From contig MHBH01000032.1 in assembly GCA_001804805.1 (NCBI GenBank), forward strand, positions 1-64,000: a stretch of 64,000 nucleotides of DNA, given 5' to 3'. The notes under the pieces are model-generated. The model did not search any database, was not told the DNA's origin, and saw only the letters and a list, made by a program, of their open reading frames with translations. A program made the position numbers and the translations under genes. Positions 2,702-58,446 of the stretch are shown here, piece after piece. This stretch comes from Lentisphaerae bacterium GWF2_49_21. GTDB taxonomy: Bacteria; Verrucomicrobiota; Lentisphaeria; Victivallales; GWF2-50-93. Every line of letters starts with the position of its first letter. Position 1 is the stretch's first letter.

Positions 2702-2781
2702 ATGCACAGCTCTTGCGAGCTTGACTACGAACGAATTTCAAATTGCTTTTGTTTGTAATTAATGCCGTAAGGCATGTTCTT
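2702..2781. repeat. Inverted pair of REP elements (R1 family)
   Basis: Two half-elements face each other. The left one (2702-2732) has stem AGCTC/GAGCT with loop TTGC, then TTGACTACGAAC. The right one (2751-2781) has GTTTGTAATTA, stem ATGCC/GGCAT with loop GTAA, then GTTCTT. They share architecture but not stem sequence with the R1 copies around the RAYT gene at 7968-8564. The right copy overlaps the TAA stop of the FAD oxidoreductase that ends at 2780. Confidence 0.8.
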
Positions 2782-4018
2782 ATTTATCTTTAAATAATGC
2801 CTTTTTGAGCTTCTTCCCGTCGACTTCCGCGACTCCGATCTTTCCTTTCACGGCTTCAGCCGCGGCGAGTCCTGCGGCTTCCCCTACAGAGGCTACTACC
2901 GGCATCACGCGCAGCGAGGAATGCGCCTCGTGCGTCGCGCTGATCGCCCTGCATGCCATCAGAAGGTTCCAGCTGCCTGTCGGAACTATGCACCGGTACG
3001 GGATTTCATAAAACGCACCTTCAACGTCCTTGAGCACTGTACCTGTGCCTGAAGGATTGTGTATGTCGATGGGATAGGAACTCCTTGCTATGCCGTCGTC
3101 AAAGGTCTTCGCCTTGACCACGTCCTCGGCTGTAAGGACGTAGTCCCCGATGACGCGCCTTGTTTCGCGCACGCCGATTTGAGAGGCAGTCTTCATCAGG
3201 AACGCATCCCTGCAGAGCGGGGATTTCTCCTTGAAGATGTTGAAGAGCTCCCACACCTGCTTGCGGGCGGTTATCTCGGCTTCACCAAGCCCTGTTGAAG
3301 TTGTTCCGTCCTTTGCGATGACACGTGTCGTGTTGAAATGCACGACGTCCGGACGGAGCGTCCTGAAGATCAGTACGTCCTCGCGCGGATCGCTTATCGT
3401 GCCGTTCGCCTTGCCTTCCTTGAATATGGCGTTGAGTTCCTGCCAGAGCGCCTTCCAGTCGTCAGCCTTGACTCCACCGAGTCGGAAACAGAGCGTCATC
3501 GGCTGGCATGCACCATCTTCCTTCCTGCCCTTTTCCGTCTTGAAACCTGCGAATTCCGCAAGGTCGCCATCGCCGGTGCCATCAATGAACATCTTTGCTT
3601 CAAATTCCCTTTCCCCATCCTTGCAGGCGACATATATCCTTGAAACTGTCCCTTTGCTGCATTCGGCTCCGGTGACGAGCGAGTGATAGAGTATATCTAC
3701 CTTTGATTCAAGGAGGAGCTTGTCCAAGAGCAGCTTCAGGATCTCGTCATCGAAGATAAGTCCGCCTTTCTCCAGCGCATTGTTCTCCGAAAGGGATTTG
3801 AGGATCCCCATAAATACGGGAGTTGGAAGACAATGGTTCTGATCCTTCTTTGAACGGTATGGCATGAAGGGATTTACAAGTCCGGCAGTCGCCATTCCCC
3901 CTGCGAAACCATAACGCTCAATCATCAGTACCGACATCCCGTTCCTGGCGGCTGACACTGCAGCTGAAATTCCGCCGGGCCCTCCGCCTGCGACAATCAC
4001 ATCATAGACTTTATTCAT
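2780..4018 (-). CDS. FAD-dependent oxidoreductase (PF12831-type)
   Basis: 412 residues. The N-terminus is a Rossmann FAD-binding fold (VIVAGGGPGGISAAVSAARNG, then the acidic end of the second strand in MIER) followed by the GFAGGMATAGLVNPF segment typical of this family. A GDGDLAEFAGF segment near residue 150 and GVRETRRVIGDYVL near 290 are also characteristic. Such proteins often have unknown substrates and occur in sugar-catabolic gene groups of PVC bacteria. A good Shine-Dalgarno (AAAGGAAA) precedes the ATG. A homologue lies directly upstream (4097-5443), separated by a two-hairpin GGAG/CTCC element. The stop codon TAA is part of an R1 REP element. Confidence 0.85.
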   Translation of the reverse strand: MNKVYDVIVAGGGPGGISAAVSAARNGMSVLMIERYGFAGGMATAGLVNPFMPYRSKKDQNHCLPTPVFMGILKSLSENNALEKGGLIFDDEILKLLLDKLLLESKVDILYHSLVTGAECSKGTVSRIYVACKDGEREFEAKMFIDGTGDGDLAEFAGFKTEKGRKEDGACQPMTLCFRLGGVKADDWKALWQELNAIFKEGKANGTISDPREDVLIFRTLRPDVVHFNTTRVIAKDGTTSTGLGEAEITARKQVWELFNIFKEKSPLCRDAFLMKTASQIGVRETRRVIGDYVLTAEDVVKAKTFDDGIARSSYPIDIHNPSGTGTVLKDVEGAFYEIPYRCIVPTGSWNLLMACRAISATHEAHSSLRVMPVVASVGEAAGLAAAEAVKGKIGVAEVDGKKLKKALFKDK

Positions 4019-7884: not shown

Positions 7885-7916
7885 TCGTTTGTAGTAGCGC
7901 ATGTTTGCGCGTTCTT
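7885..7916 (+). repeat. REP element, R1 family
   Basis: GTAGTA, hairpin GCGCA-tgtt-TGCGC, GTTCTT on the plus strand, inverted relative to 7643-7674. It ends about 50 bases before the RAYT start codon. Confidence 0.85.
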
Positions 7917-7967
7917 TGTCTTGTTGTATTTCCTTTCTTGCATTATCTTAGTCTCCAAAAACTCATC

Positions 7968-8564
7968 ATGTACAATTACAGGAAAATGACCGAAGAACAG
8001 CAGAAGGATGTACTTCGGTCTAGGCGCATTAATAAACTGCCGCTTCATGAGCCCTTCCATAAACTGGATGAACCTGCCAAACTTTATCTGATAACTGCAG
8101 CAAATTACGAGCATAAGGCTGTAATGAACTCGGAAGGCCGGCGAATTTATCTTGTAGGCATGCTGACGGACTTGTTAAACAAAGATGGATCATGCCTGCA
8201 TTCATGGTGTGTCCTCCCCAACCACTATCACGTCTTGGTAAAGGCCGAACTCCTTAATGTCAAGAAGGCTATTTCAAAGGTCCACTGGAAGACCTCCCAT
8301 CAATGGAACATTGAGGATTCAACTCCGGGGCGAAATGTATGGTTCAGGTTTTCCGACAGGGCGATCCGGAACGAACCTCATTTCTGGGCGACTGTCAATT
8401 ATATACATTCAAATCCAGTGAAGCACGGTTATGTAAAGAAAGCTGACAGTTGGGCGACGTCTTCATTTAAGGATTATCTTGAGAGATATGGCAGGAACAG
8501 GCTGGTGGCCATTTGGAGAGATTATCCGGTCAGGAATATCGGAAAAGATTGGGATGAAGAGTAA
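7968..8564 (+). CDS. REP-associated tyrosine transposase (RAYT, Y1_Tnp family)
   Basis: 198 residues from the ATG at 7968. The HUH motif is in HSWCVLPNHYHVLV (His-hydrophobic-His) and the family block FSDRAIRNEPHFWATVNYIHSNPVKHGY follows, with the Tyr of VNYIHSNP a candidate nucleophile. RAYTs are single-copy domesticated relatives of IS200/IS605 transposases that cut single-stranded REP hairpins. Four good R1 elements flank the gene, two on each side in inverted pairs (7643, 7885, 8563, 8734). The last two bases of the stop codon and what follows belong to the REP element TAAGAAC, so the repeat supplies the stop. No clear Shine-Dalgarno is visible, which suggests low expression. Confidence 0.9.
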   Translation: MYNYRKMTEEQQKDVLRSRRINKLPLHEPFHKLDEPAKLYLITAANYEHKAVMNSEGRRIYLVGMLTDLLNKDGSCLHSWCVLPNHYHVLVKAELLNVKKAISKVHWKTSHQWNIEDSTPGRNVWFRFSDRAIRNEPHFWATVNYIHSNPVKHGYVKKADSWATSSFKDYLERYGRNRLVAIWRDYPVRNIGKDWDEE

Positions 8565-8594
8565 GAACGCGCAAACATGCGCTACTACGAGCGA
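8563..8594 (-). repeat. REP element, R1 family, overlapping the RAYT stop codon
   Basis: On the minus strand it reads GTAGTA, hairpin GCGCA-tgtt-TGCGC, GTTCTT(A). The last bases form the TAA stop (8562-8564) of the RAYT gene on the plus strand. Confidence 0.9.
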
Positions 8595-8818: not shown

Positions 8819-8842
8819 AACGGGCTGGAAAGCCCGTCCTAC
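8819..8842 (-). repeat. REP element, R2 family, overlapping a stop codon
   Basis: On the minus strand GTAG is followed by hairpin GGGCT-ttcc-AGCCC flanked by GAC and G. The TAG in GTAG is the stop codon of the gene ending at 8839. Confidence 0.85.
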
Positions 8843-9882
8843 TTGATCTTCACCGGGCAACCCTCTGCGGCGCTCTTGTAGAGGGCGTCGAGGATTTCCA
8901 TGACGATCAGGCCTTCTTCTCCGGTCGCTATATTCGGTGTTCCATTGACTATGCTGTCGATGAAATGATACATCGCGTTCTTCGCCTGCGGCACGGGAGG
9001 ATGCAGTTTCATGTCATACTGGCAGCCGTCCTTCTCCATGTAGAACTCGCATTCGAAGTTATAGCCTTCGTTCAGGTTGTACTGGTGGAGTCCGGCCTTT
9101 GTCCCAAGGAGCTGGGTGTGCATGAACTCCCTGTCCTTGATGTTGCCGGCCCATGACGCTTCCAGAGACAGTGCCGCGCCGTTCTTGAACTTGATGAAGC
9201 CTGCGGCCATGTCTTCGACGTCGAAGGTCTTCTTCTCAGCCTTTGCACGTTCCGTCGCGATATGGTTGAAGGTGTTGCCCATTACCCAGACAGGCTTCGG
9301 ATAGTCCATCAGCCAGAGCGCGAGGTCTAGTCTATGCACTCCGAGGTCGATGAGAGGTCCGCCGCCCGCGAGGGCCTTCTGGCCGAACCATCCGCCGAAC
9401 CCCGGCATCCCGCGTCTCCTGAGCCATTGCGTCCTGGCGTAATAGATGTCACCGAGTATGCCTTTCTCGACCTGCTGCTTCATCGCGTATGACTGCTCTG
9501 TGAACCTGAAGCTGAAATTTATCATCAGCCTCTTCCTGGCCTTCTTCGAGGCAGCAAGCATGTCACGGGCTTCCTGTGCATTCATCGCCATCGGCTTTTC
9601 GCAGAGCACATGGCATCCAGCCTTGAATGCTGCAAGCGTGAGGGGCCTGTGGAACTTGTTCGGTGTCGCGATGCTCACGACATCTAGCTTCTCCTTCGCC
9701 AGCATTTCCTCGGCGGAAGTGTAGAGGCTGGGAATGTTAAATTCCTTTTTGCCCCTTTCTTCAAGCCGTTTCGGATCCGTGTCTGCGACTGCGACAACTT
9801 CCGCCTGGTCATGGGTACGGTACCCCTTGATATGTCCGGAACCCATCCCGAGCCCGATAACTCCAATACGTAATTTTTTCAT
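8839..9882 (-). CDS. Gfo/Idh/MocA-family NAD(P)-dependent oxidoreductase
   Basis: 347 residues from the ATG at 9882. The N-terminus LRIGVIGLGMGSGHIKGY is the nucleotide-binding turn and CEKPMAMN is the EKP signature with the catalytic Lys. The C-terminal sheet domain follows (residues about 130-345). These enzymes oxidise or reduce sugars and inositols. The start was chosen because AAGGA sits 9 bases before it and the fold begins there. A possible start at 9912 overlapping the upstream stop would add ten residues. The ribosome-binding site lies in the loop of a small AT-rich hairpin (9888-9909). It follows the ThuA gene in one operon. The stop codon TAG is part of an R2 REP element and a terminator follows. 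Confidence 0.9.
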   Translation of the reverse strand: MKKLRIGVIGLGMGSGHIKGYRTHDQAEVVAVADTDPKRLEERGKKEFNIPSLYTSAEEMLAKEKLDVVSIATPNKFHRPLTLAAFKAGCHVLCEKPMAMNAQEARDMLAASKKARKRLMINFSFRFTEQSYAMKQQVEKGILGDIYYARTQWLRRRGMPGFGGWFGQKALAGGGPLIDLGVHRLDLALWLMDYPKPVWVMGNTFNHIATERAKAEKKTFDVEDMAAGFIKFKNGAALSLEASWAGNIKDREFMHTQLLGTKAGLHQYNLNEGYNFECEFYMEKDGCQYDMKLHPPVPQAKNAMYHFIDSIVNGTPNIATGEEGLIVMEILDALYKSAAEGCPVKIK

Positions 9883-9887
9883 ATATA

Positions 9888-9909
9888 AAATTTTTCCTTG
9901 TAAAAATTT
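9888..9909 (-). promoter_or_regulatory. AT-rich hairpin presenting the ribosome-binding site in its loop
   Basis: AAATTTTT (9888-9895) pairs with AAAAATTT (9902-9909). On the minus strand the loop is ACAAGG, so the AAGGA Shine-Dalgarno of the gene starting at 9882 is exposed in the loop and first stem base. It may tune translation between the two operon genes. Confidence 0.45.
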
Positions 9910-9911
9910 CA

Positions 9912-10685
9912 TCAGCTCTGCACAATTCCGGCCTTGCCGAAATCAACGTTCTTCGGAGGAATTGTCTCGAGCGGTATCTTTGCGTTCGGACAGCTGTCCT
10001 TGATGAAGGATCTCGGGGCGCCCCACTTCGCGGCGTTGCAGAGGACCTTTATGATCTGGGGATTGTGGTAGATCGGATAGGTCTCGTGTCCGGGACGGAA
10101 GTAGAAGACCTTGCCGTGTCCGCGGTTGAATGTGACACCGCTCCTGAATACTTCGCCGCCCTCGAACCAGGATATGAAGATGATGTCGTCCGGTGTCGGG
10201 ATGTCGAAACGTTCGCCGTACATTTCAGTGTTTGGCAGCTCGATAAAGTCGCCGATGCCTTCAGTGATGGGATGGTTGGGAGCGATGTTCCAGAGTCTTT
10301 CCTTCTCGGCTGCTTCGCGCCATTTGAGCGAGCAGTTCGTGCCCATGAGGGTCTTGAAGATCTTTGAGAAGTGTCCGGAGTGGAGGATGACGATGCCCAT
10401 GCCTTCGAGGACGCGTTTCTGGACTTTTTTCACGATATCGTCCCTGACATCGCCGTGGGCGACGTGGCCCCACCAGAACATGACGTCGGTGTTGTTCAAT
10501 ACTTCGTCGGTGAGACCGTGCTCGGGTTCGTCGAGGGTGGCTGTCTTCACATCGAATCCGCCGGCCTTCTTGAGGGCGTCGGCTATTACAACATGCATTC
10601 CATTGGGATAAATCTTTTTGACAGCTTCATTCTTCTTTTCATGCCTGAACTCATTCCATACCGTCACTCTGATCTTTGCGCTCAT
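9912..10685 (-). CDS. ThuA-domain protein (trehalose-utilization type)
   Basis: 257 residues matching the ThuA-like glutamine-amidotransferase fold: [25 protein letters not shown] at the start, [31 protein letters not shown], and the end [21 protein letters not shown]...NAAKW. ThuA proteins are found with Gfo/Idh oxidoreductases in sugar catabolism, often linked to 3-keto-disaccharide metabolism, but their exact reaction is not settled. Shine-Dalgarno AAGGACA. It is first gene of a two-gene operon with the Gfo/Idh enzyme and is divergent from an AraC regulator at 10837. Confidence 0.85.
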
Positions 10686-24342: not shown

Positions 24343-25175
24343 ACGTCCAACATCCAACTTCGAACATCCAACTTCCAATGAAGATGAACTCGTGGAAATT
24401 TAAAATTGGAAATCTAAAACTGGGCAAAGGCGATACAGGATGCAGGAATCTGTCGTCTGTCGCCTGTCGTCTGTCATCGGCATTTACTCTCATCGAGCTC
24501 CTGGTTGTCATCGCCATCATCGCGATCCTCGCGGCGCTTCTGCTGCCGGCGCTCCAGCAGGCGAAGGAGATGGCGATCAAGATCCAGTGTGCGAACAACA
24601 TGAAGCAGATCGGGCTTGCAATGCACAATTACCTGACTGACTGGAATGGCTATCTGCCACCGCCGACCGCAAACACAAATGCAGGTGCACCGTCATGGCG
24701 GAGACAGCTCGATCCGGATGACCTCAAGACTCCGCTCCTTTACAGGTGCCCGGGGCAGAAGGGATTTGTCGGAGATGCATGGAATACCGTGCCGGCCACG
24801 ATCTATGGAATGAACATGATGATCCTTCACGTGGAAACGCATGCGGATGTCAGCACCGGCGGAAATCCGCTGGATTTTTGTACGCCGAAGCCGTTCTACA
24901 AGATAAGGGATCCGAGCAAGTGCGGTCTGGTCTTCGAGACCAGGGCCTCAGAGCAAAGAGGCAGCAGTTCGATCATCTGCTGCAAGAGCTCGACCTTCCA
25001 GATCAGCCGTCTCGGAGATTTCACCCGCCATCTGAAAAAGTCAAACCTTGTCTATGCCGACGCCCATGCCGACACGAAAACAGGAAGCAGCAAAAACAAC
25101 TACGATGACTATATCCATCCCGAAGAGGGATTCTACCACCTGTGGGAAGGCAGCGAGACCTGCGTGAATCCGTAA
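24339..25175 (+). CDS. Pseudopilin-like protein with repeat-derived leader
   Basis: 278 residues. The start ATG overlaps the GntR stop, with GGAGG nine bases upstream. The leader ([16 protein letters not shown]...) is unusually long, about 48 residues, and is encoded by short repeated words (CCAACATCCAACTTC, CTGTCGTCTGTCGCCTGTCG). The helix [24 protein letters not shown] follows. The C-terminal motif is [14 protein letters not shown], an H-X9-DA variant of H-X9-DG. Because the prepilin peptidase would remove everything before Phe, the odd leader need not affect the mature protein. The stop TAA is the first base triplet of an AT-rich palindrome. Confidence 0.85.
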
Positions 25176-25198
25176 TTTTCCCGGACGGGGAAATTATA
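25173..25198. repeat. AT-rich palindrome at first pilin-pilin junction
   Basis: TAATTTTCCC and GGGGAAATTA around loop GGAC, with one G-T wobble. It includes the stop codon of the gene ending at 25175. Related to 26089-26115, 29042-29069 and 30208-30236. Confidence 0.75.
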
Positions 25199-25219
25199 AC
25201 AAGATTGAAGGGGGAAGTT

Positions 25220-26089
25220 TTGAAAAAAATCGGGAATCGGAAATCGCCGACAGGAAATAACTTCACAATTATCGAGTTGCTCGCTGTGCCAGCCGTAGCC
25301 CGAAGGGCGAAGGCAAGCTCAATGTCGTTTACGATCATCGAGCTGTTGGTCGTTATTGCGATCATCGCAATCCTCATCGCCTTGCTGCTGCCGGCGCTGA
25401 GCATGGCGAAGGAGACGGCCTATCTTGTGAACTGCCAGAGCAATCTCAAGCAGATTGGGGCGATGATAGGAACTTATACCGGTGACTGGGATATGGTACT
25501 GCCTCCGCCAGCCGCCCATCCGGATCATGCCAACGGCATGAGCACCAGATGGCCTTACGCCTTGTGCGGCTACAAGTCCGGGGAAGGGGCCACAGCGTTC
25601 GCCGCAAAACCTTTTGACGGGAACCATATTATCTTCAAGTGTCCCGGCAAGAGGGGCAGGACCGACAACTGGCTTAATGCAAACAAGGGAAAACCGGCAC
25701 AGTGGTACGGGATGAACCTTTCAATCGCACCGCGCCTTCTTCCGGTCACCTGCACCTGCCCGACGTGTAATGGCGATGGTCCGACAACAGCCGCTACAAT
25801 GGAGACCAATCCCCACACTTATACATGCAAAAATGTGACTTACCTGACCTTCCCTTCAGCCATGGCTCTTCTTCTTGAGACAAAGGAATCCATGCAGTAT
25901 GCCGGTGCACTGCTGATTGCCGCAGGATTCGCATGCCAGCAGAACCAGGATTTTCAAAGACATGTCAACGGAAGCTGTATATTGTTCCTTGACGGACACA
26001 TCGAGAAGCGGAACATAGGCAATATTCCGTTTTCAGTGAGTGATATCGAGTCGAAGAAATTCTGGCGCGGCCGTGATGATGACAATTGA
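25220..26089 (+). CDS. Pseudopilin-like protein, H-X9-DG type, with duplicated FTIIELL motif
   Basis: 289 residues from a TTG start preceded by AAGGGGGA. A GTG at 25142 would overlap the previous gene and has no such site. Residues about 15-22 (FTIIELLA) are repeated 22 residues later in [24 protein letters not shown], with [14 protein letters not shown] between. The DNA of the insert forms GCC-gta-GCCC-gaa-GGGC-gaa-GGC. H-X9-DG motif [14 protein letters not shown]. Both FTIIELL copies share the unusual Ile, which suggests local duplication. Cysteine-rich stretch [11 protein letters not shown] near residue 175. Next gene: secreted glycosidase. Confidence 0.85.
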
Positions 26090-26115
26090 TAAATTTTCCG
26101 GATGGAAAATTTATA
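26089..26115. repeat. AT-rich palindrome between pseudopilin and glycosidase genes
   Basis: ATAAATTTTCC and GGAAAATTTAT, 11 perfect pairs around loop GGAT, directly after the TGA stop and before the Shine-Dalgarno of the next gene. Confidence 0.85.
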
Positions 26116-26132
26116 ATAAAAAGGAGAACGTG

Positions 26133-29060
26133 ATGAGAAAGGTCTTTTTGCTGTTTACTGTATTGCTTGCCTGCACTGTGATTTCCTTGGCGGAGGATGA
26201 AAAGGTCTCGATAGGCGATTTTGAAAAGGACCAGCAGGGCTGGGAATATAACGGCGGCTGGGAGTTCAAGGGGGCTGAAGGGGCGGTCTCCATTGACAAG
26301 GAAAATAAGAAGTCAGGGACTGCCTCCCTGAAAATCCATGGTGACTTTACTAAGGGCGGATCATATGTTGCGGCCGTGAAAAAGTTCAAGGCCGATATGA
26401 AATCCCTTTCATTCAATATAAAGACCTCGAAGCTGAATGGATTTGACATGCGGCTGAAGGACAAGTCCGGACAGATCTTCCAGTACCCGATGAAGCTTGA
26501 GGCGAACGAGGACTGGCAGGTGGTGAAGATGGAGGACTTCGAGAAGGCCGGAGGTTCCTGGGGTGGCAAGAATGACAAGAAGTTCCATATGCCCGCAACT
26601 GAATTGTGGGTGATGAACGGCAAGCAGCATATAACCGACGGACAGAAGACTGCCGACATCTGGCTCGACGATGTCGAGGTTGTCAGGGAGAAGGAAATCA
26701 TTGTCCCGCCGAGGCCGATACCTTCCGGCGTGCGAATTCCGCAGGATAGCATTTTTGGGTTCAGCGGACACATGATACATACCGATCTTGTCTACGGCCC
26801 GGACAGGTTTTCCCCGTATTGGAGGCTTGATTATACTCTTCCATTCCTGCTTGAAGGTGGTTTTGGCTGCATGAGGGAGACGCTGTACCAGGGGTTCTTC
26901 ACTGATGAAGGTGAGAAGAAGAACGAGAACAAGGAAAAGAACAGGAAACTGGTTGAACAGTATCTCGAGATGTATTCCAAGGCCGGGATAAGCGTCCTGC
27001 TCTGCCCGATGTTCACCAAGTCAGGTCGTCCCTCTTTCGATGATTATTTCAGCTGGCTTGCGGAACTGCCCGCGAAATATTCTGCGGTGAAGGGATTTGA
27101 GATGCACAACGAGCCGAACCTCAAGCATTTCTGGGGATGGTCGGTTGAAGATTATGCCGAATCCTGCAAGGCCGGAACGAAAATCCTGAAGGGGAAGAAT
27201 CCAAATGTTCCAGTTGTCATCGGTTCGATCTCCCATTTGTGGTGGGGGCCTGGCATCAAGTTCCTCCAGAAGGCGATCAAGGCAGGAGCGCTTGAAGGGG
27301 CGGACGGTATCAGCACTCATCCGTACCGCAAGGATTTTGCTCCCGAGGGAGGCGACATGCACTGCGACAGGTTCGATCCGAACGGGCTTGAGACTGAGAT
27401 GATGGACTTCTGGGCCATGATCCAGAAATACAACAAGGACAACAGGGATCTCAGCCTTTACTTCACGGAATTCGGTTATTCGTCCGGAAATGGAAGCGGC
27501 GCTTTTGCTCCGGAACAGGCGCAGGGGATCAGCAGCATTGATCTCCAGGCGGATTACCTGTCACGTATCATACTCGTCTTTTTCGATGCGCGCCTCAAGG
27601 GGATTCCGCTCAATGGGCTCTACTGGTACGACCTGAAGTGCGATGGGAAGGATCCCGGGGATCTCGAACCTAATTTCGGGCTGATTGATTATAACACCTC
27701 GTCTGCCAGGCCCGGATTCAAGGCGTATTCGGAAATCGCGAAGACCTTCGGTCAAGTCTCCAGTTTCGCCAAGGTTCCAGCTAATGCCGCCTTTGACAGG
27801 AACGACAATGCGGTAAAGCGGTTCTGCTGGAAAAAGCTTTCAGACGGTTCGCTGTATTTTGCGTTCTGGCGTCTCGACCAGCTCCAGAAGGAGAAAAAGG
27901 ATTTTACGGCAAACCTGGAATTGGCGTTGCCTGAAGGATTTGATGTTTCATCCGTAGAACTGCAGGACCTTGGAGATTTCTCGCTGAAGCCTGTGAAATA
28001 TGAGCTTGCCGGCGGCAGGCTCAAGCTGCCCCTCAATGTCAAGATACGTGCATCATGGCTTGTTATAAAACCTAAGCAGCCGGAAACGGTGAAGGTTTCA
28101 GGCCCTTGGCTGCACGTCCTGCCTGCCGTATTCAAGACTGAAGGTGGTTCATTGATAAAGCTCGAGGGGAAACGGGAGATAAAGTCAGGCAACCAGCCGG
28201 AAATAACTGTTTCAATCGACAATTCAAAATCCGACAAGGCGCTCGATATCATGTTTGTCGGTGGTGGAATCTCAAAGGTGATGAAGGCGGACGCCGGAAG
28301 GAGTTCGACTGAAACAGTCAAGCTTCCTAAAATTAGCGCCGTCCAGGAACTTGCACTTTGCGACTACTATCTTAAGCTGGGAAACGAGATCATCGGACGT
28401 GGCGATATTGCATTCCTCGTGCAGGGCGGAGTCAAGGAGGTTGTGGAAGATGTGAAGGCCGCTGCAGTATGTGTCAGGATCAGTCCGAAGATAGATGGAA
28501 GCCTGGATGACTGGGCTGGCAAAAAGCCGATCTTCTTCCCCAAGGATGGTGTAAAGATAAAGGACTACAAGGGCGAGAAGGACATGAGCGGGAAATTCTA
28601 TATAGGCTATGACAAGGAGAATTTTTATTTTGCCGCGGAAATGGTGGACGACGAGTTCAGCCAGAAGGAGTCGGGCTCGAAGATATGGAGCGGTGATTCA
28701 ATACAGATGTCTCTTGCGCCAAGGCTCAAGAATGAGATGCCGGACTGGTACGAGTTCGGACTTGCGCTTACGGCAAAAGGTCCTGAAGCCTGGTGCTGGG
28801 TCTCTCCTGACAACAGCAAGGAGGAAAAACCTTTGAACTGCAAGATCGCCATTAGGAATGAAAATGGCAGGCTGACTTATGAATGCGCGATCCCATGGAG
28901 CGAGCTCAAGGAGGTTTCACCGGCTTCGAAATATTTCCTATTCTCGGTCATGCACAATGAAAACGACGGCAACGTGAGAAGAGGATGGATAGAGTGGGCA
29001 TCAGGGATCGGTGCCGACAAGAATCCGGCGCTGTTCAATACAATAAATTTTCAGGACTGA
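26133..29060 (+). CDS. Secreted multidomain GH-A glycoside hydrolase with carbohydrate-binding modules
   Basis: 975 residues from the ATG at 26133 (AAGGAGAA upstream). Order: signal peptide (MRKVFLLFTVLLACTVISLA), a CBM11/CIA30-like beta-sandwich (about 20-190, EKDQQGWEYNGGWEF ... DDVEVV), a GH39/GH5-like barrel (about 205-560) with Glu327 in MHNEPN as acid/base and Glu446 in FTEFGYSS as nucleophile, beta-rich linkers, and a C-terminal CBM9-like domain (about 800-970, PKIDGSLDDWAG ... WSGDSIQMSL). It degrades a plant- or mucin-type polysaccharide outside the cytoplasm. The first gene fragment in the window is related to its N-terminal module. Its last codons and stop lie within an AT-rich palindrome. 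Confidence 0.85.
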   Translation: MRKVFLLFTVLLACTVISLAEDEKVSIGDFEKDQQGWEYNGGWEFKGAEGAVSIDKENKKSGTASLKIHGDFTKGGSYVAAVKKFKADMKSLSFNIKTSKLNGFDMRLKDKSGQIFQYPMKLEANEDWQVVKMEDFEKAGGSWGGKNDKKFHMPATELWVMNGKQHITDGQKTADIWLDDVEVVREKEIIVPPRPIPSGVRIPQDSIFGFSGHMIHTDLVYGPDRFSPYWRLDYTLPFLLEGGFGCMRETLYQGFFTDEGEKKNENKEKNRKLVEQYLEMYSKAGISVLLCPMFTKSGRPSFDDYFSWLAELPAKYSAVKGFEMHNEPNLKHFWGWSVEDYAESCKAGTKILKGKNPNVPVVIGSISHLWWGPGIKFLQKAIKAGALEGADGISTHPYRKDFAPEGGDMHCDRFDPNGLETEMMDFWAMIQKYNKDNRDLSLYFTEFGYSSGNGSGAFAPEQAQGISSIDLQADYLSRIILVFFDARLKGIPLNGLYWYDLKCDGKDPGDLEPNFGLIDYNTSSARPGFKAYSEIAKTFGQVSSFAKVPANAAFDRNDNAVKRFCWKKLSDGSLYFAFWRLDQLQKEKKDFTANLELALPEGFDVSSVELQDLGDFSLKPVKYELAGGRLKLPLNVKIRASWLVIKPKQPETVKVSGPWLHVLPAVFKTEGGSLIKLEGKREIKSGNQPEITVSIDNSKSDKALDIMFVGGGISKVMKADAGRSSTETVKLPKISAVQELALCDYYLKLGNEIIGRGDIAFLVQGGVKEVVEDVKAAAVCVRISPKIDGSLDDWAGKKPIFFPKDGVKIKDYKGEKDMSGKFYIGYDKENFYFAAEMVDDEFSQKESGSKIWSGDSIQMSLAPRLKNEMPDWYEFGLALTAKGPEAWCWVSPDNSKEEKPLNCKIAIRNENGRLTYECAIPWSELKEVSPASKYFLFSVMHNENDGNVRRGWIEWASGIGADKNPALFNTINFQD

Positions 29061-29069
29061 AAATTTATT
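29042..29069. repeat. AT-rich palindrome overlapping the glycosidase stop codon
   Basis: AATAAATTTTCA and TGAAAATTTATT, 12 pairs around loop GGAC. It encodes the last residues and TGA stop of the glycosidase. Confidence 0.85.
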
Positions 29070-29097: not shown

Positions 29098-29880
29098 ATG
29101 AGAAAGGCTTTGTCATTATTGTCGGTGGTGCTTGTCCTGTCCGGATTTGCAGCCGTTGAGGAAAAGAAGGATGCCGATCTTCCGTCGCTGGATGTCCCAA
29201 AGGCTGAAGCTGCACCGGAGATCGACGGGAAGCTCGATGATCCGGCCTGGGCCACGGCGGTCGTAATAAACGGCCTTCTTCCGAGCAGGGGCGGGAAGTA
29301 TCAGGAGAAGATTGACAAGGTGCCGACGACGATCAGGCTTCTGTGGGACGAAAATTATCTCTATGTCGCCTATGAATGCACCGATGCCGATATCGTGGCG
29401 ACCATGGCGGAGCGCGACAGCAAGCTCTACATGGAGGATGTCTGCGAGGTCTTCATCGATCCAATGGGCGATGGACGGCAGTATTTCGAAGTCCAGGTCA
29501 GTCCGAACAATGTGATTTTCGATATCAACCATTTTTGTACAGGTGAACCGCAGTATACAGAGACAAAACGCTTCACCCCCGAGTTCGGAAAGAAGGAACA
29601 TTGGGCTTTCCCTGAATGGAACATGGAAGGCCTGAAGACGGCAACGGTCAGGACTGAAAAGGGATGGAACTGCGAGATCGCCTTTCCTGCAAAGCTCCTC
29701 ATGAAGAGGAGAGGCCTTGACAAGATTGTGCCTTGCGAACTTCGCGCCAACTTCATGAGGTATGACTGGCAGCCCGGAAAGAATGACAAGCGTGATATGA
29801 TTCATATGAACTGGGCGCCTGTCCAGCATGGCTGTCCGCACATATCGCCGGCGGCGATGGGGATTTTGAATTTGAAGTAG
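29098..29880 (+). CDS. Secreted CBM9-like carbohydrate-binding protein
   Basis: 260 residues from the ATG at 29098 (GAGGAG seven bases upstream). After a signal peptide (MRKALSLLSVVLVLSGFAAV) comes one CBM9-type beta-sandwich: APEIDGKLDDPAWATA, RLLWDENYLYVAYECTDADIV, EDVCEVFIDPMGDGRQYFEVQVSPNNVIFD, GWNCEIAFPAKLL. The same fold ends the preceding glycosidase. It is the last gene of the GntR operon and may hold polysaccharide at the cell surface. The TAG stop is the GTAG of an R2 REP element. Confidence 0.85.
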   Translation: MRKALSLLSVVLVLSGFAAVEEKKDADLPSLDVPKAEAAPEIDGKLDDPAWATAVVINGLLPSRGGKYQEKIDKVPTTIRLLWDENYLYVAYECTDADIVATMAERDSKLYMEDVCEVFIDPMGDGRQYFEVQVSPNNVIFDINHFCTGEPQYTETKRFTPEFGKKEHWAFPEWNMEGLKTATVRTEKGWNCEIAFPAKLLMKRRGLDKIVPCELRANFMRYDWQPGKNDKRDMIHMNWAPVQHGCPHISPAAMGILNLK

Positions 29881-29901
29881 GACAGGCTTTCCAGCCTGTT
29901 C
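29877..29901 (+). repeat. REP element, R2 family, overlapping a stop codon
   Basis: GTAG then a stem CAGGCT/AGCCTG with loop TTCC. The TAG is the stop of the CBM9 gene. The stem differs from the common GGGCT/AGCCC by a paired change. Confidence 0.85.
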
Positions 29902-29932: not shown

Positions 29933-30047
29933 GAACGGGCTGGAAAGCCCGCCCTACAGAACAGACGGGCTGGAAAGCCCGCCCTACAGAACAGACGGGC
30001 TGGAAAGCCCGCCCTACAGAACAGACGGGCTGGAAAGCCCGTCTTAC
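29933..30047 (-). repeat. Tandem array of four R2 REP elements, 30-bp period
   Basis: Units start at 29935, 29965, 29995 and 30025. Each has hairpin GGGCT-ggaa-AGCCC and CTAC or TTAC (GTAG or GTAA on the minus strand). The last unit provides the TAA stop of the minus-strand gene ending at 30044. The array lies between convergent genes. Confidence 0.9.
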
Positions 30048-30442
30048 TTCTTCTTGAATTTATCGCAGTCGTCCATCGGTCCGATATCCTTCTTGTGGAG
30101 TTCGCAGCGGTTCAGGAACGGGTGTGACACGAAGTGCATGCAGTCGCGGCAGAAATGCCTTTCGTCCTCGCTGGATTCTATCTTCGGCCCTTCCTGTCTT
30201 TTTTCAGATAATAAATTTTCCAGTTTGGAAAATTTATTGCTGATGTCGGCGGATTTGGACTTCTCCTCCACCTCAAGATCTGCGATCTTCGCGGAACAGC
30301 ACGAGCAGGCGAGTATGTCGCCAACCTTGGTCCAGCCGTCCATCAGCGTCTTCTTGACCAGGAAGCAGTCCTTCCCGCAGTGCGGACATTTCATCTGTTG
30401 TCCGGGCTTCATGATAAAATTTTCTTCAAATGGATTCTCCAT
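30044..30442 (-). CDS. Small zinc-ribbon protein of unknown function
   Basis: 132 residues. Residues about 17-60 have two CxxC pairs, MKCPHCGKDCFLV and LACSCCSAK, typical of a zinc ribbon. A third Cys group, HFCRDCMHFVSHPFLNRCELH, is near residue 95 with Cys again at DDCDKF. I do not recognise a family. An AT-rich palindrome is embedded in frame (30208-30236, encoding NKFSKLENLLS). The start region can form a hairpin (ATGGA-gaa-TCCAT) within longer AT-rich arms (30414-30422 and 30451-30459), and the stop comes from an R2 REP array, so repeats mark this gene at start, middle and end. Confidence 0.7.
   Translation of the reverse strand: MENPFEENFIMKPGQQMKCPHCGKDCFLVKKTLMDGWTKVGDILACSCCSAKIADLEVEEKSKSADISNKFSKLENLLSEKRQEGPKIESSEDERHFCRDCMHFVSHPFLNRCELHKKDIGPMDDCDKFKKK
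30208..30236. repeat. AT-rich palindrome inside a coding region
   Basis: AATAAATTTTCCA and TGGAAAATTTATT, 13 perfect pairs around GTT. It is read in frame by the gene 30044-30442. It belongs to the family seen at the junctions of the GntR operon. Confidence 0.85.
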
Positions 30443-36630: not shown

Positions 36631-36690
36631 GTAAGGCGGGCTTTCCAGCCCGTTTCTCCTCTTTAGTAAGACGGGCTTTCTAGCCCGTTT
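36631..36690 (+). repeat. Two R2 REP elements before hydG
   Basis: 36631-36655 (GTAAGGC, hairpin GGGCT-ttcc-AGCCC) and 36666-36690 (GTAAGAC, same stem with loop TTCT). The first abuts the hydG start codon. Confidence 0.85.
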
Positions 36691-36721
36691 ATTCTTGTAG
36701 TTTAATTTAAAGAAATACAAT

Positions 36722-36745
36722 AACAGGCTGGAAAGCCCGCCTTAC
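36722..36745 (-). repeat. REP element, R2 family, supplying the RAYT-2 stop codon
   Basis: On the minus strand GTAA, then GGCGGGCT-ttcc-AGCCTG. The TAA is the stop of the RAYT at 36742-37344. Confidence 0.85.
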
Positions 36746-37344
36746 TTTATAATCATCCATGGCCAATCTGAAGATTTTCCCGCGAGTCTGGCTTTTACAG
36801 GATTATCAATTATATACTTCTTAATCCTCTCTTCTTCAAATGGAGTTCTGCACCAATGGTCGAATGTTTCAGGGGCCCAGAATGCACCTTTTCTCGACAG
36901 AATTATGTTAGCCTCCCTCGCGGTGTAACCTTTGAAAATGCTGAAGACCTTATTGAAGGATTTGGTGGCTTGTTCTCCAGCGGTCAGTATATGCAAGTGG
37001 TTTGGCATAACAACAGCAGACAAGATTTTCCAGGTGTAATTCGTTTCTATCCAGAGAAGAGAGTCAATGATTAGTTTCGCGACTTTGGGATCCTGTAAGA
37101 ACAAATTATCCTTTGAGTTGTCAAGTATCGAGTCAAGATGGCAAATATAAGTTTCCAAAAAATTATTGCTTGCTCCAGGCTTATTTGATTCCTCCTTTAA
37201 TTTCAGGGTTTTGTTCTTCAGCTCTTCAAGCTCTTGCCTGGGAATTGAATTCTTTAGCCGAATTGTAAGGAAAAAGGAACGTCCCCTGACTGTCCAATGT
37301 GGAAGCTTGCGCCTATAGAAGGAAATAGTCTCTGGATATTCCAT
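36742..37344 (-). CDS. REP-associated tyrosine transposase (RAYT, Y1_Tnp family), second type
   Basis: 200 residues. The HUH motif is in SAVVMPNHLHILTAG (His-Leu-His) and the C-terminal RIKKYIIDNPVKARLAGKSSDWPW is the family's nucleophile-helix region, with Tyr in KKYIIDNP the likely catalytic residue. It is clearly different from the RAYT at 7968-8564. R2 REP elements flank it at both ends (36631-36745 and 37349-37478), and its TAA stop is part of one. The start ATG is five bases from the upstream REP and has no Shine-Dalgarno. It sits between hydA and hydG, on the same strand, so it may be co-transcribed with the hydrogenase genes. Confidence 0.9.
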   Translation of the reverse strand: MEYPETISFYRRKLPHWTVRGRSFFLTIRLKNSIPRQELEELKNKTLKLKEESNKPGASNNFLETYICHLDSILDNSKDNLFLQDPKVAKLIIDSLLWIETNYTWKILSAVVMPNHLHILTAGEQATKSFNKVFSIFKGYTAREANIILSRKGAFWAPETFDHWCRTPFEEERIKKYIIDNPVKARLAGKSSDWPWMIIK

Positions 37345-37348
37345 TTGA

Positions 37349-37373
37349 GTAGGACGGTCTTTCCAGACCGTTC
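37349..37373 (+). repeat. REP element, R2 family, covariant stem
   Basis: GTAGGAC then stem GGTCT/AGACC with loop TTCC. The G-C pair of the common stem is replaced by T-A at both arms, a compensatory change. Lies just upstream of the RAYT-2 start. Confidence 0.85.
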
Positions 37374-37398
37374 ACTTTTTTTTATAGTTATAAAAATA

Positions 37399-37478
37399 GA
37401 CGGGCTGGAAAGCCCGCCTTACTACTGACGGGCTGGAAAGCCCGCCTTACTACTGACGGGCTGGAAAGCCCGCCTTAC
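37399..37478 (-). repeat. Tandem array of three R2 REP elements, 28-bp period
   Basis: Units begin at 37399, 37427 and 37455. Each is GACGGGCT-ggaa-AGCCCGCCTTAC. The last provides the TAA stop of hydA. Confidence 0.9.
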
Positions 37479-39247
37479 TTCGCCTTCGAGTGATAATGAG
37501 TATGCAGGAGCTCATGGGACTTGTGACCGAGCGGCTTTTCCAAAAACTCCTTGTAGATCTGCGTGATCGCAGGATTGTCGTGCGACTTGCGCATCGGACG
37601 GCCTTCGTCTTCCTTGTAGATGGCCTTCATCCTGGCCTTGCGGACTTCATTGGTCGTAAGCCGGGGCTGTCCGCCACCGCCGATACATCCGCCGGGGCAG
37701 CACATGACTTCGATGAAATGCCAGCCGTGCTTGTTGCCGGCCGCGACAAGATCACATGCTTCTTTTGCATTTGAAAGACCGTGTGCAACTGCGACTTTCG
37801 CAGTTACGCCTTCAAGGAACTTCCAGTCGGGCTTGCAGTCAGTCAATGTCACAGAAGCCTCCTTCAGTCCTTTCAGTCCCTGGACAGGCTTCACATGAAG
37901 CTTGTTCATCGGTATTTCCCGTCCAGTGACAACTTCATAGACTGTCCTGAGCGCAGCTTCCATGACGCCTCCGGTGTTGGCGAATATGTCCGCAGCCCCG
38001 GTCGAGAGGCCCATGGGAGCATCCTGCTCGCCATTCTCGAGATTTACGAAGTCGATTCCCGCCTCGGTGATCATACGTCCGAGTTCGCGTGTCGTGAGGA
38101 CATAGTCGACATCCTTGAAGCCGGATGAATTCATCTCCTCGCGGTCGCACTCGAACTTCTTCGCCGTGCAAGGCATGATTGAAACAACAACTATCTTGGA
38201 AGGATCAATCTTTTCCTTCTGGGCGAAATAGGTCTTGGCAAGGGCTCCGAACATCTGCTGCGGTGATTTGCAGGTCGAAAGGTTCGGCAGAAGGTTCGGA
38301 TGGAAATATTCCATGTAGTTAATCCATCCCGGAGAACAGCTCGTGAACATCGGCAGGGAGACGTTGCCCTTTTCTACAAGAGCAGTCTTGAGACGCGTAA
38401 GAAGCTCGGAGCCCTCTTCCATGATCGTAAGGTCGGCGGTGAAGTTGGTGTCGAAGACCTTCTTGAAGCCAAGACGTCTAAGCGCGGTGACCATTTTTCC
38501 GGTCACAAGAGTTCCCGGCTTCAGGCCGAAACATTCGCCGAGGGCGGCGCGGATGGCCGGAGCCGTCTGGACAACCACGTACTTGTCGGGATTGTCAAGT
38601 TCCTTCCAAACATCCTTGATTGCATCCTTCTCGAAGATTGCGCCGACCGGACATACGGCGGAACACTGTCCGCACTGAACGCAGATCGCGTCACAGAGGT
38701 TTTCTCCGGAACCTGCGCCGATGACGGTGTCGAATCCGCGGAGCCTCGGGGCGAGGGAGCCTACACCCTGTATATCCTGGCAGACGCCAATGCATCGACG
38801 GCAGAGAACGCATTTGTTCATGTCGCGTACAAGGGCAGGTGTGGAATTGTCGATAGGCAGTTCCTCTTTTTCATAGGGGAAACGGACTTCGGATATGCCC
38901 ATGCTCTTGGAGAGGGTCTGAAGTTCGCAGTCATTGTTCCTCTTGCATGCATTGCAGTCCCATGGATGGTTTGCAAGCATGAGTTCGACGGAAAGCCTCC
39001 TTGCGTCGCGTGCAAGCTTGGTGTTCGTACTTACGACCATTCCTTCGGCGACTTTTGTCACGCATGAAGGCTGGAGAGTCCTTGCGCCTTTGATTTCCAC
39101 AAGGCATACGCGGCAGGAACCGGGGCTTGAAACTCCGTCGAGATGGCAAAGTGTTGGAATCTTGATTCCGGCTTTTGCTGCTGCATCAAGGACCGTAGTC
39201 CCTTCATCCACCGACACCGGAACGGTGTTCACTGTCAGATTTATCAT
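37475..39247 (-). CDS. hydA: NAD-linked [FeFe]-hydrogenase catalytic subunit (HydA/HndD)
   Basis: 590 residues, the length of HndD-type enzymes. Order: N-terminal [2Fe-2S] domain (SSPGSCRVCLVEI), His-Cys [4Fe-4S] site (HPWDCNACKRNNDC), two ferredoxin-type clusters (CVLCRRCIGVC, CVQCGQCSAVCPVGA), the H-cluster domain with L1 TSCSPGW, L2 MPCTAKKFE and L3 EVMCCPGGCIGGGGQP, then the small-subunit-like tail. It makes or uses H2 with electrons from NADH and ferredoxin. Shine-Dalgarno AAGGAG. It works with the HydB (40186-41829) and HydC (41831-42295) subunits upstream. The stop codon is supplied by an R2 REP array. Confidence 0.95.
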   Translation of the reverse strand: MINLTVNTVPVSVDEGTTVLDAAAKAGIKIPTLCHLDGVSSPGSCRVCLVEIKGARTLQPSCVTKVAEGMVVSTNTKLARDARRLSVELMLANHPWDCNACKRNNDCELQTLSKSMGISEVRFPYEKEELPIDNSTPALVRDMNKCVLCRRCIGVCQDIQGVGSLAPRLRGFDTVIGAGSGENLCDAICVQCGQCSAVCPVGAIFEKDAIKDVWKELDNPDKYVVVQTAPAIRAALGECFGLKPGTLVTGKMVTALRRLGFKKVFDTNFTADLTIMEEGSELLTRLKTALVEKGNVSLPMFTSCSPGWINYMEYFHPNLLPNLSTCKSPQQMFGALAKTYFAQKEKIDPSKIVVVSIMPCTAKKFECDREEMNSSGFKDVDYVLTTRELGRMITEAGIDFVNLENGEQDAPMGLSTGAADIFANTGGVMEAALRTVYEVVTGREIPMNKLHVKPVQGLKGLKEASVTLTDCKPDWKFLEGVTAKVAVAHGLSNAKEACDLVAAGNKHGWHFIEVMCCPGGCIGGGGQPRLTTNEVRKARMKAIYKEDEGRPMRKSHDNPAITQIYKEFLEKPLGHKSHELLHTHYHSKAK

Positions 39248-42801: not shown

Positions 42802-42825
42802 ATTTTTAATAATATTAATAATGCT

Positions 42826-42883
42826 GGGACAGGCTTCCGACTTCGCCCAGGGGCTATGCCGGACACGGAAAGCCCGTCCCTAC
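42826..42883 (-). repeat. Expanded R2 REP element overlapping a stop codon
   Basis: On the minus strand GTAGGGACGGGCTTTCCG pairs with the other arm CGGAAGCCTGTCCC, with an extra GCCC/GGGC hairpin in the loop where normal R2 elements have four bases. The TAG is the stop of the gene ending at 42880. Confidence 0.65.
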
Positions 42884-44094
42884 TTCTTGAAATCAGCTTT
42901 CACTTCGTCCCTGAACTTGAAGTCTGTCAGGAAACGGTAGCCGACCTGGGCGATTGCCTTTGCGGCGTTCAGCATTGAATTCAGTGCTATCTGGCTTTTT
43001 GCGGCCTCTGCGAACTTCGCAGAATGGAGAGGGATGCTCTCCTTCGGTGAGATGCCGAAATATACGTGGGTGCCGGGAATGATTTGGGAGACGTCGCCGA
43101 AGTCGCTTGACGCCCTTCCGCTCTTTTCAGAAGTTCCAGGTTCCATTCCGAGTTCCTTTGCGATCTTGAAATATTCCTCGTTGAGCGGTTTGTTGACTTT
43201 TCCGGCCTTGTAGCCTTCCTCGCCATACTTGACTTCGCATGGAGTGCCGGCCATGAGGGCGGCGCCCTGGGCAATGTCCCTGAACCGTTTTTCCATTTCC
43301 TCAAGTATCGTGTCATTTTCCGCCCTGAGATAGAAACTGCAGGCGGCGTGGTCCGGAACTATGTTCGGAGCGGCTCCTCCGGATGTGACAATGCCGTGGA
43401 TCCTGCTGGTCTCCGGCAGGTGCTGACGCCAGGCGTTTATTCCCTGGAAGAAAAGCATCACTGCATCGAGGGCGTTCCTGCCTTTTTCAGGGGCGGTGGA
43501 GGCGTGCGAGGATCTGCCCTTGTATGAAACATCCAATCTTATGACCGAAAGAAATCCGCGCCAGATGAGCGTGCGCGAGGAGGGATGCGCCATTATTGCA
43601 GCGTCGATTCCGGTGAACGCCTTTCTTCTTACAAGATGGACCTTGCCGCCTTTGCCTTCTTCTGCGGGAGTTCCCATGATGATGACTGAGCCGGGAATCT
43701 TTTCTTTCTGGATCGTGTCGGCAAGAGCTTTTGCGGCGCCGATGGAGGCTGCGCAGATGAGATTGTGTCCGCAGGCATGTCCGAGCTGGGGGAGGGCGTC
43801 GTATTCCGCGAGGAAGCAGAAGGCGGGCTTGCCTTTACCGGCTTTTGCGAGATACGCAGTTGGAAGCTGTGCGAAAGGCGACTGGACGTCAAAGCCCATC
43901 TTTGTGAGCATATCGACCTGCCACTTGCAGGCTTTGACTTCCTCCATGCCCTGTTCAGGATTCGCATGGATGTCGAGTGAAAGCTTTTTCAGCAAAGCGG
44001 CGTTCTTGTCGATACTATTTGAAATGATTGATTTAATGGTAAATCCCTCCTGATACGAAGTTTTGAATGAGTTGCGGCAGATACTGTAGTTCAA
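42880..44094 (-). CDS. M20-family amidohydrolase (aminobenzoyl-glutamate utilization-like), possible ATT start
   Basis: Up to 404 residues. Family motifs: SLDIHANPEQGMEEVKAC, FLAEYDALPQLGHACGHNLICAAS (metal-binding HACGHN), GTPAEEGKGGKVHLV (catalytic Glu pair) and SSDFGDVSQIIPGTHVYFG. It removes an acyl or amino-acid group from an amide. The frame opens with TTG at 44094 without a ribosome-binding site, but a strong AGGAGGG lies seven bases before an ATT at 44037, where homologues usually begin. The true start may therefore be ATT (385 residues). The stop is in an expanded R2 element. No operon partners. Confidence 0.85.
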   Translation of the reverse strand: MNYSICRNSFKTSYQEGFTIKSIISNSIDKNAALLKKLSLDIHANPEQGMEEVKACKWQVDMLTKMGFDVQSPFAQLPTAYLAKAGKGKPAFCFLAEYDALPQLGHACGHNLICAASIGAAKALADTIQKEKIPGSVIIMGTPAEEGKGGKVHLVRRKAFTGIDAAIMAHPSSRTLIWRGFLSVIRLDVSYKGRSSHASTAPEKGRNALDAVMLFFQGINAWRQHLPETSRIHGIVTSGGAAPNIVPDHAACSFYLRAENDTILEEMEKRFRDIAQGAALMAGTPCEVKYGEEGYKAGKVNKPLNEEYFKIAKELGMEPGTSEKSGRASSDFGDVSQIIPGTHVYFGISPKESIPLHSAKFAEAAKSQIALNSMLNAAKAIAQVGYRFLTDFKFRDEVKADFKK

Positions 44095-58343: not shown

Positions 58344-58446
58344 GGAGGGCGGGTTTTCCAACCCGCCAAGGCGGACCTGCCTTCGCATGGAAGCTACGAC
58401 AAGGCACGCTGGAAAGTTTACCACGCTTAGGCGTGGTCCGCCCTCC
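58344..58446. repeat. Cloverleaf-like palindromic element with GGAG...CTCC ends
   Basis: Arms GGAGGGCGG (58344-58352) and CCGCCCTCC (58438-58446) enclose hairpins GGCGGGTT/AACCCGCC, TGCCTT/AAGGCA with an inner CTTC/GAAG type stem, and CCACGC/GCGTGG. It is 103 bases, the same length as 47439-47541 but different in sequence. Confidence 0.85.

Follow-up and report, generated by a model that had tools for sequence, protein, structure and literature searches.

In an uncultured Victivallales (Lentisphaerota) bacterium, stop codons lie in the foot of a short palindromic repeat, R2, far more often than chance would allow. Fifteen of 47 independent copies of R2 (family A) in 1.66 Mb of DNA had the foot at −4 to 0 of a stop codon on the same strand, against 1.25 expected (P ~ 1e-13), which upholds the original prediction that chance overlap is unlikely. 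Judging from orthologous genes of the same genus, the stop is ancestral, and so in most cases is the terminal Lys; the repeats appear to overlay native gene ends and to change the protein by at most one residue wherever the comparison is readable.

The window is a 64,000-nt stretch of DNA (C32:1-64000) from a genome of 5.9 Mb in 91 contigs (G000), for which the hydrogenase gene points to Lentisphaerae MAGs as close relatives. The census sample consisted of 20-kb stretches around each place of R2 and of a second repeat, R1, merged with the window to give 1.66 Mb (28% of the genome). It takes in all R2 and R1 copies found genome-wide at up to three mismatches, and other repeat families were counted within this sample only. 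Gene calls came from a purpose-written, hexamer-trained script, which missed one of the genes expected in the window, the atypical R2 transposase gene, and recovered the others. A foot at offset −4 is a GTAR whose TAR is the stop codon, and enrichment was assessed from −4 to 0 of same-strand stops. For the orthologue search, joined C-terminal pieces were compared with three genomes of the same genus (G001, G002, and G003), and the DNA behind the stops was then compared; relative G001 was sampled over 0.8 Mb. An Rfam scan of the 64-kb window at gathering score matched one tRNA and nothing else, leaving R2 and the palindromes unmatched.

Sequence features place R2 among the REP families, with GTAG/GTAA as its tag and a predicted RAYT (Y1 HUH transposase) gene of its own in the window. 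The consensus, GTARGRCGGGCTTTCCAGCCC, carries GTAG or GTAA (GTAR) at its foot and has the form of GTAG-tagged REPs, a palindrome of 20–40 nt with an unpaired GTAG-like tetranucleotide at one foot (GTARGRCGGGCTTTCCAGCCCG). Copies occur at 97 places genome-wide at up to three mismatches, GGAG-footed cousins included, and are mainly extragenic (1 of 47 independent copies lies within a gene). They form inverted pairs (BIME/REPIN) and tandem arrays, and they border the cognate RAYT gene on both sides, as in a REPtron; the stop TAA of this gene is itself the R2 foot at 36745. The genome holds about 20 Y1_Tnp genes. The window is unusually dense in R2 and carries the transposase genes of both R2 and R1, and its two REPtrons, of unrelated REP families (7894-8585 and 36631-37478), lie less than 30 kb apart. 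The GGAG-footed cousins (GGAGGGCGGACTTTCCAGTCCGCC, GGAGCGCGGGTTTTCCAACCCGCG; for example window 58344-58364) are found at 46 places, frequently as inverted pairs. The repeats at or near gene ends in the window are as follows:

2755..2783, minus strand: palindrome of another family, AAGAACATGCCTTACGGCATTAATTAC, adjoining the TAA of gene 2780-4018(-).
7894..8585, plus strand: R1 REPtron, with inverted R1 copies at 7894-7916(-) and 8563-8585(+) on either side of a Y1 transposase-like gene (7905-8564).
8822..8842, minus strand: R2 copy with its GTAG foot at 8842-8839; this TAG closes gene 8839-9912(-), which encodes a Gfo/Idh/MocA oxidoreductase.
29877..29897, plus strand: R2 copy, CAGGCTTTCCAGCCTG variant; its TAG is the stop of a CBM9-like gene ending at 29880(+).
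29937..30047, minus strand: four R2 units in tandem, repeating every 30 nt; gene 30044-30442(-) has its TAA in the foot of the final unit (30047).
36631..36745, mixed strands: three R2 copies (36631+, 36666+, 36725-) located 3′ of the R2 transposase gene.
36742..37344, minus strand: R2 RAYT-type Y1 transposase gene (Pfam Y1_Tnp 26.3 bits, cut-off 23; HUH motif NHLH in the translation).
37349..37478, both strands: R2 copy at 37349(+) and tandem copies at 37402, 37430, and 37458 (-) with a 28-nt period; foot at 37478.
42820..42883, minus strand: another GTAG-tagged, longer palindrome of the GTAGGGACGGGCTTTCCGTGTCC...GGACGG family; an M20 peptidase-like gene, 42880-44094(-), ends on its TAG.

The TAG or TAA of R2 is thus the stop codon of five window genes, which end at 8839 (TAG), 29880 (TAG), 30044 (TAA), 36742 (TAA), and 37475 (TAA), each after an AAG codon. 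The one at 37475 belongs to an iron-hydrogenase gene, 37475-39247(-), whose TAA is the R2 foot at 37478. The array at 29937..30047 and the copy at 29877 together occupy the entire gap between two convergent stops. The original prediction had listed six R2-borne stops; the sixth, at 42880, reads AAG-TAG on the GTAG foot of a different and longer cousin family of R2 (GTAGGGACGGGC...), and the predicted Lys codon AAG is present at all six ends. The assignment of two further stops to R1 did not hold. The TAA at 8564 lies at the non-GTAG end of R1 (TAAGAAC) and closes the R1-flanked Y1 transposase (RAYT) gene itself, which scored 22.2 bits for Y1_Tnp (just below the cut-off of 23) and 23.2 bits with its neighbours. 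An R1 copy at 2780 was rejected; the AAGAACATGCCTTACGGCATTAATTAC palindrome there has just the AAGAAC end in common with R1. R1 is found at 52 places genome-wide, and 1 of 54 copies was at a stop in the sample that holds all R1 copies at up to three mismatches.

The proposed measurement of repeat-to-stop distances, run on the 1.66 Mb, gave an excess for the GTAR-tagged families and none for R1. The foot faced the 3′ end of a gene in 23 of the 47 R2 copies; 11 feet were at −4, one at −1, and three at 0, with others at 1, 5, and 9 and a few far away. Across the eight GTAR-tagged families in the sample, 32 copies at −4 supply the stop and a further eight are at 0. A GGAG-tagged family (46 copies in the sample) and a GTAGGTC composite (9 copies in the sample) had none at stops. 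The majority of R2 copies lie away from stops, a situation that had been expected to point to a sampling effect, yet the excess at stops is far above chance and limited to GTAR-tagged families. Reading frame was strongly biased too, with 32 feet in frame as the stop and 4 in another register within the last 80 nt of the gene (p = 7e-12). At one of these four (C61 181678, L056), the gene continues across the R2 copy out of register and so acquires a repeat-encoded C-terminus, ...VRQAFQPVIN, before its stop.

The bases in front of the foot explain the Lys codon. AA stands directly 5′ of GTAR in 97 of 125 copies away from stops (78%; background 10.5%), and TTAA makes up the four bases before GTAR in 26 of the non-stop copies (background 0.7%). 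Units inside tandem arrays have no such AA (0 of 8), and AA is therefore a property of the insertion site and not of the repeat unit. Because AA and the G of GTAR together read AAG, this preference produces AAG before the stop, and 28% of the proteins in the sample end in Lys anyway; terminal Lys is no signal in itself, as the AA preference and these Lys-ending proteins account for it.

The AA preference predicts only about 5% of copies at −4, and a further cause is therefore required. Random insertion at AA was rejected as a sufficient cause; it predicts about 5% at −4 and 77% beyond +10, while 11/27 and 4/27 were observed. The same figures weigh against pure filtering, whereby repeats would insert at random AA sites of a compact genome in which harmless space is limited to the short interval from a stop to the ribosome-binding site that follows. 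REPIN pairs do reach from a stop to the ribosome-binding region of the next gene, or from stop to stop in convergent pairs, and many fill the stop-to-ribosome-binding space exactly, with 14–23 nt left to the next start. However, the excess on the stop persisted where gaps measured 150 nt or more (17 of 107 GTAR feet against 0.9 expected, P = 2e-17), and we consider filtering by itself unlikely. The suggestion that insertion targets gene ends was borne out in part: the AA site preference, which holds away from genes as well, and the in-frame register speak for it, but AA alone leaves the share at −4 far too low.

Comparison with relatives bears on whether the repeats create gene ends. The iron-hydrogenase gene (hydA) ends in AAG-TAA with R2 in G000, in AAA-TAA in G001 and G002, and in AAG-TAA in G003, at the same residue and without a REP in the relatives. 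The gene ending at 30044 closes with AAA-TAA or AAA-TGA in two relatives, and the proteins of C26_99976, C66_31248, and C88_33741 end no more than one residue apart from those of close relatives. A ribulokinase-like gene (C9_48010) has the end AAGTAG in all four species, and the repeats behind it are R2, GTAGGTACGG, and, in two species, GTAGGGACGGGC, of which one copy is truncated. G001 shares the REPs at the stops of 8839, 29880, and C40_25158, and its orthologue of the gene ending at 42880 has another palindrome at the same AAGTAG. Orthologue ends that are REP-free or differently occupied are mostly AAATAA or AAGTAR, at the same residue or one away.

The comparison with REP-free orthologues thus revealed no shortening of proteins, since wherever close relatives could be read, their ends lay at most one residue away. 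That insertions survive by creating a stop, as had been proposed, fails for hydA, the gene at 30044, C26_99976, C88_33741, C66_31248, and C9_48010. An in-frame TAR is a codon in use, as would be expected if REP insertions made new, earlier stops and shortened proteins, but this origin is refuted for the cases compared and extremely improbable in general. Instead, the orthologues indicate that REPs arrive at or within a codon of native stops and that REP families turn over at one stop. We infer the insertion point from such ends, because the intergenic DNA is too diverged between species for base-level alignment of empty sites. Retention stood at 4 of 11 for REPs at stops and 2 of 13 for REPs elsewhere, which gives stop REPs no clear advantage.

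When IS200/IS605 elements insert, a tetranucleotide is kept and the element enters behind it. By the same logic, GTAR could be a pre-existing target in the stop context, with the hairpin alone inserted behind it. AAGTAR is found without a REP in relatives at hydA (G003), C4_14230, and C36_7091, and in G000 at C17_147180, and AAGTAG is constant under different REPs at C9_48010. However, empty orthologous ends carry AAGTAR in some cases only, and many read AAATAA, CCATAA, or TGA. In addition, internal units of tandem arrays have GTAR without AA, and the GTAG of known REPs is a guide within the element (PMC8266576). A pre-existing GTAR target is, on this evidence, quite unlikely.

The explanation that we regard as fairly probable is that R2 joins at the AA of native gene ends, that in-frame copies are kept, and that the stop hairpin is tolerated or favored at particular genes. 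On insertion, the GTAR foot would be joined to an AA lying 5′ of it; the preference for AA is observed, and joining would be mediated by the RAYT. Native ends, mostly Lys (AAA/AAG) followed by TAA or TAG, would offer an AA junction at a harmless place. There, the AA of the last Lys codon and GTAR would give AAG-TAR, so that the stop becomes part of the first bases of the repeat and the protein end moves by one residue at most. In the alternative register, a native TAA or TGA would stand directly against the repeat. Copies with TAR in frame would be kept, and the rarity of other frames (32 versus 4) suggests purifying selection against them. The palindrome turnover described below suggests that the hairpin at the stop may be tolerated or favored at particular genes. 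By analogy with E. coli REPs no more than 15 nt from a stop, the effect would probably be post-transcriptional, with ribosomes slowed at termination and the mRNA 3′ end shielded; an effect on termination or mRNA decay would be the most likely consequence of the stop REPs here.

Different palindromes at orthologous stops give some support to the earlier suggestion that a hairpin after the stop is useful, for instance in protecting mRNA ends. Where a G000 stop has a REP and the orthologue has none, a palindrome of the AT-rich class described below was found in 5 of 25 cases, versus 3 of 114 for palindrome-free stops (p = 0.005), in a scripted test whose comparisons across three relatives are not fully independent and which has a few label errors (for example, C66_31248 in G003 and G000 C32 25176 were both scored as REP with none evident). 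A tally by hand had suggested a stronger contrast, and the figures given are those of the script. Palindrome presence at orthologous stops is also common to species (p = 3e-7). These observations favor selection for a stop hairpin besides the insertion preference, without being proof.

A second class of palindromes at stops is unrelated to REPs. In the G000 and G001 samples, perfect hairpins with 8 bp or more accumulate at stops. An AT-rich palindrome marks 69 gene ends out of 1170 in G000 and 28 out of 565 in G001. They start mainly at −4, with TAA inside the stem (ATAAATTT...AAATTTAT), or at −1 (TGA-TAAATTT). The palindrome scan of the window includes the following:

25172..25204, plus strand: AT-rich palindrome with the stop TAA of the gene ending at 25175(+) in its 5′ arm.
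26089..26114, plus strand: AT-rich palindrome ATAAATTTTCCGGATGGAAAATTTAT, which overlaps the stop of the gene ending at 26089(+) by a single base, the first of the palindrome and the last of the codon.

A GGA-type loop is frequent in this class. A further palindrome at window 29043-29068 covers the end of gene 26076-29060, which crosses the 5′ arm and stops at a TGA in mid-palindrome. In two tandem pairs with gaps of 24–25 nt (C17 153751, L016; C88 31071, L082), the palindrome extends from the stop to the next start codon, and its loop can hold GGA/GGGGG-like ribosome-binding letters. The AT-rich stop palindromes do not have the G+C-rich stem and U-tract of intrinsic terminators (U-tract in 6 of 69), and separate classical terminators follow them at C10 16849 and C82 23138. 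The exact outer pattern occurs 13 times in G000 and is absent from 59 further genomes of the class; within this 60-genome class sample, the AT-rich class is genus-restricted. Among orthologous AT palindromes, the loop varies and a stem carries a compensatory change (ATAAATTCCGC/GCGGAATTTAT versus ATAAATTCTGC/GCAGAATTTAT). This change, in G001, is at C4 27803/27820 (L004), where the ends of the palindrome are the stops of two convergent genes. One palindrome holds both convergent stops in four pairs of the sample (C4 27803/27820, C17 16718/16738, C61 149212/149233, and C66 25468/25487). A search for stop-embedding palindromes in Lentisphaerae found none in the literature available.

Both classes could be read as kept at stops for a hairpin function, such as termination kinetics, mRNA 3′-end protection, or insulation of the next gene, with REPs and AT palindromes interchangeable. 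The palindromes of another type at orthologous stops, the conservation of AT palindromes across species with a compensatory stem change, and the four convergent pairs argue for this function. On the other hand, most genes have no palindrome, many REP stops are bare in relatives, and palindrome-prone ends may be merely permissive insertion sites; we hold such a function to be possible rather than probable. A stop codon in a palindrome foot would then be common in the genus, and we propose only tentatively that a selected "stop-codon hairpin", supplied by GTAR REPs or AT palindromes interchangeably, acts in termination or mRNA 3′-end handling.

Insertion at native ends with retention of in-frame copies can be compared with known systems. 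The GTAG-tagged REPs and RAYTs (Nunvar 2010, PMC2817692; PMC3733652) resemble R2 in the GTAG foot, the palindrome of 20–40 nt, and about 100 copies, as well as in inverted pairs, tandem arrays, and a Y1 transposase gene bordered by copies. That GTAG REP termini often supply TAG stops to flanking ORFs was published in 2013 (Di Nocera, PMC3733652). Compared with the REPs of that study, which does not name the phylum Lentisphaerota, GTAA is here as usable as GTAG and TAA stops are also provided, several families have the AA flank, and orthologues point to native ends. In E. coli, REPs that lie 15 nt or less from a stop cause ribosomes to stall, according to work cited as ref. 17 in PMC12306157. 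In both cases a hairpin follows right behind the stop, but in R2 the stop codon is part of the repeat, at a distance of 0 nt. Palindromes are likewise enriched at gene 3′ ends among E. coli inverted repeats (PMC6060812), but these are for the most part intrinsic terminators and have their centers some 25 bp past the stop, whereas here the foot is on the stop. IS200/IS605 single-strand transposons share with R2 a Y1 HUH transposase and a hairpin whose stem has a guide-like tetranucleotide on its 5′ side, although R2 is a short, non-autonomous repeat. As far as the literature shows, the orthologue test, the use of GTAA beside GTAG, and the stop-embedding AT palindromes are new.

The R2 family therefore represents a quantified, orthologue-controlled case of REPs that reach stop codons, in which native ends would be overlaid and not created. 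The stop-embedding AT palindromes merit a separate study. If palindrome turnover reflects selection, orthologous stops with different palindromes may be used to distinguish a harmless site from a useful hairpin.
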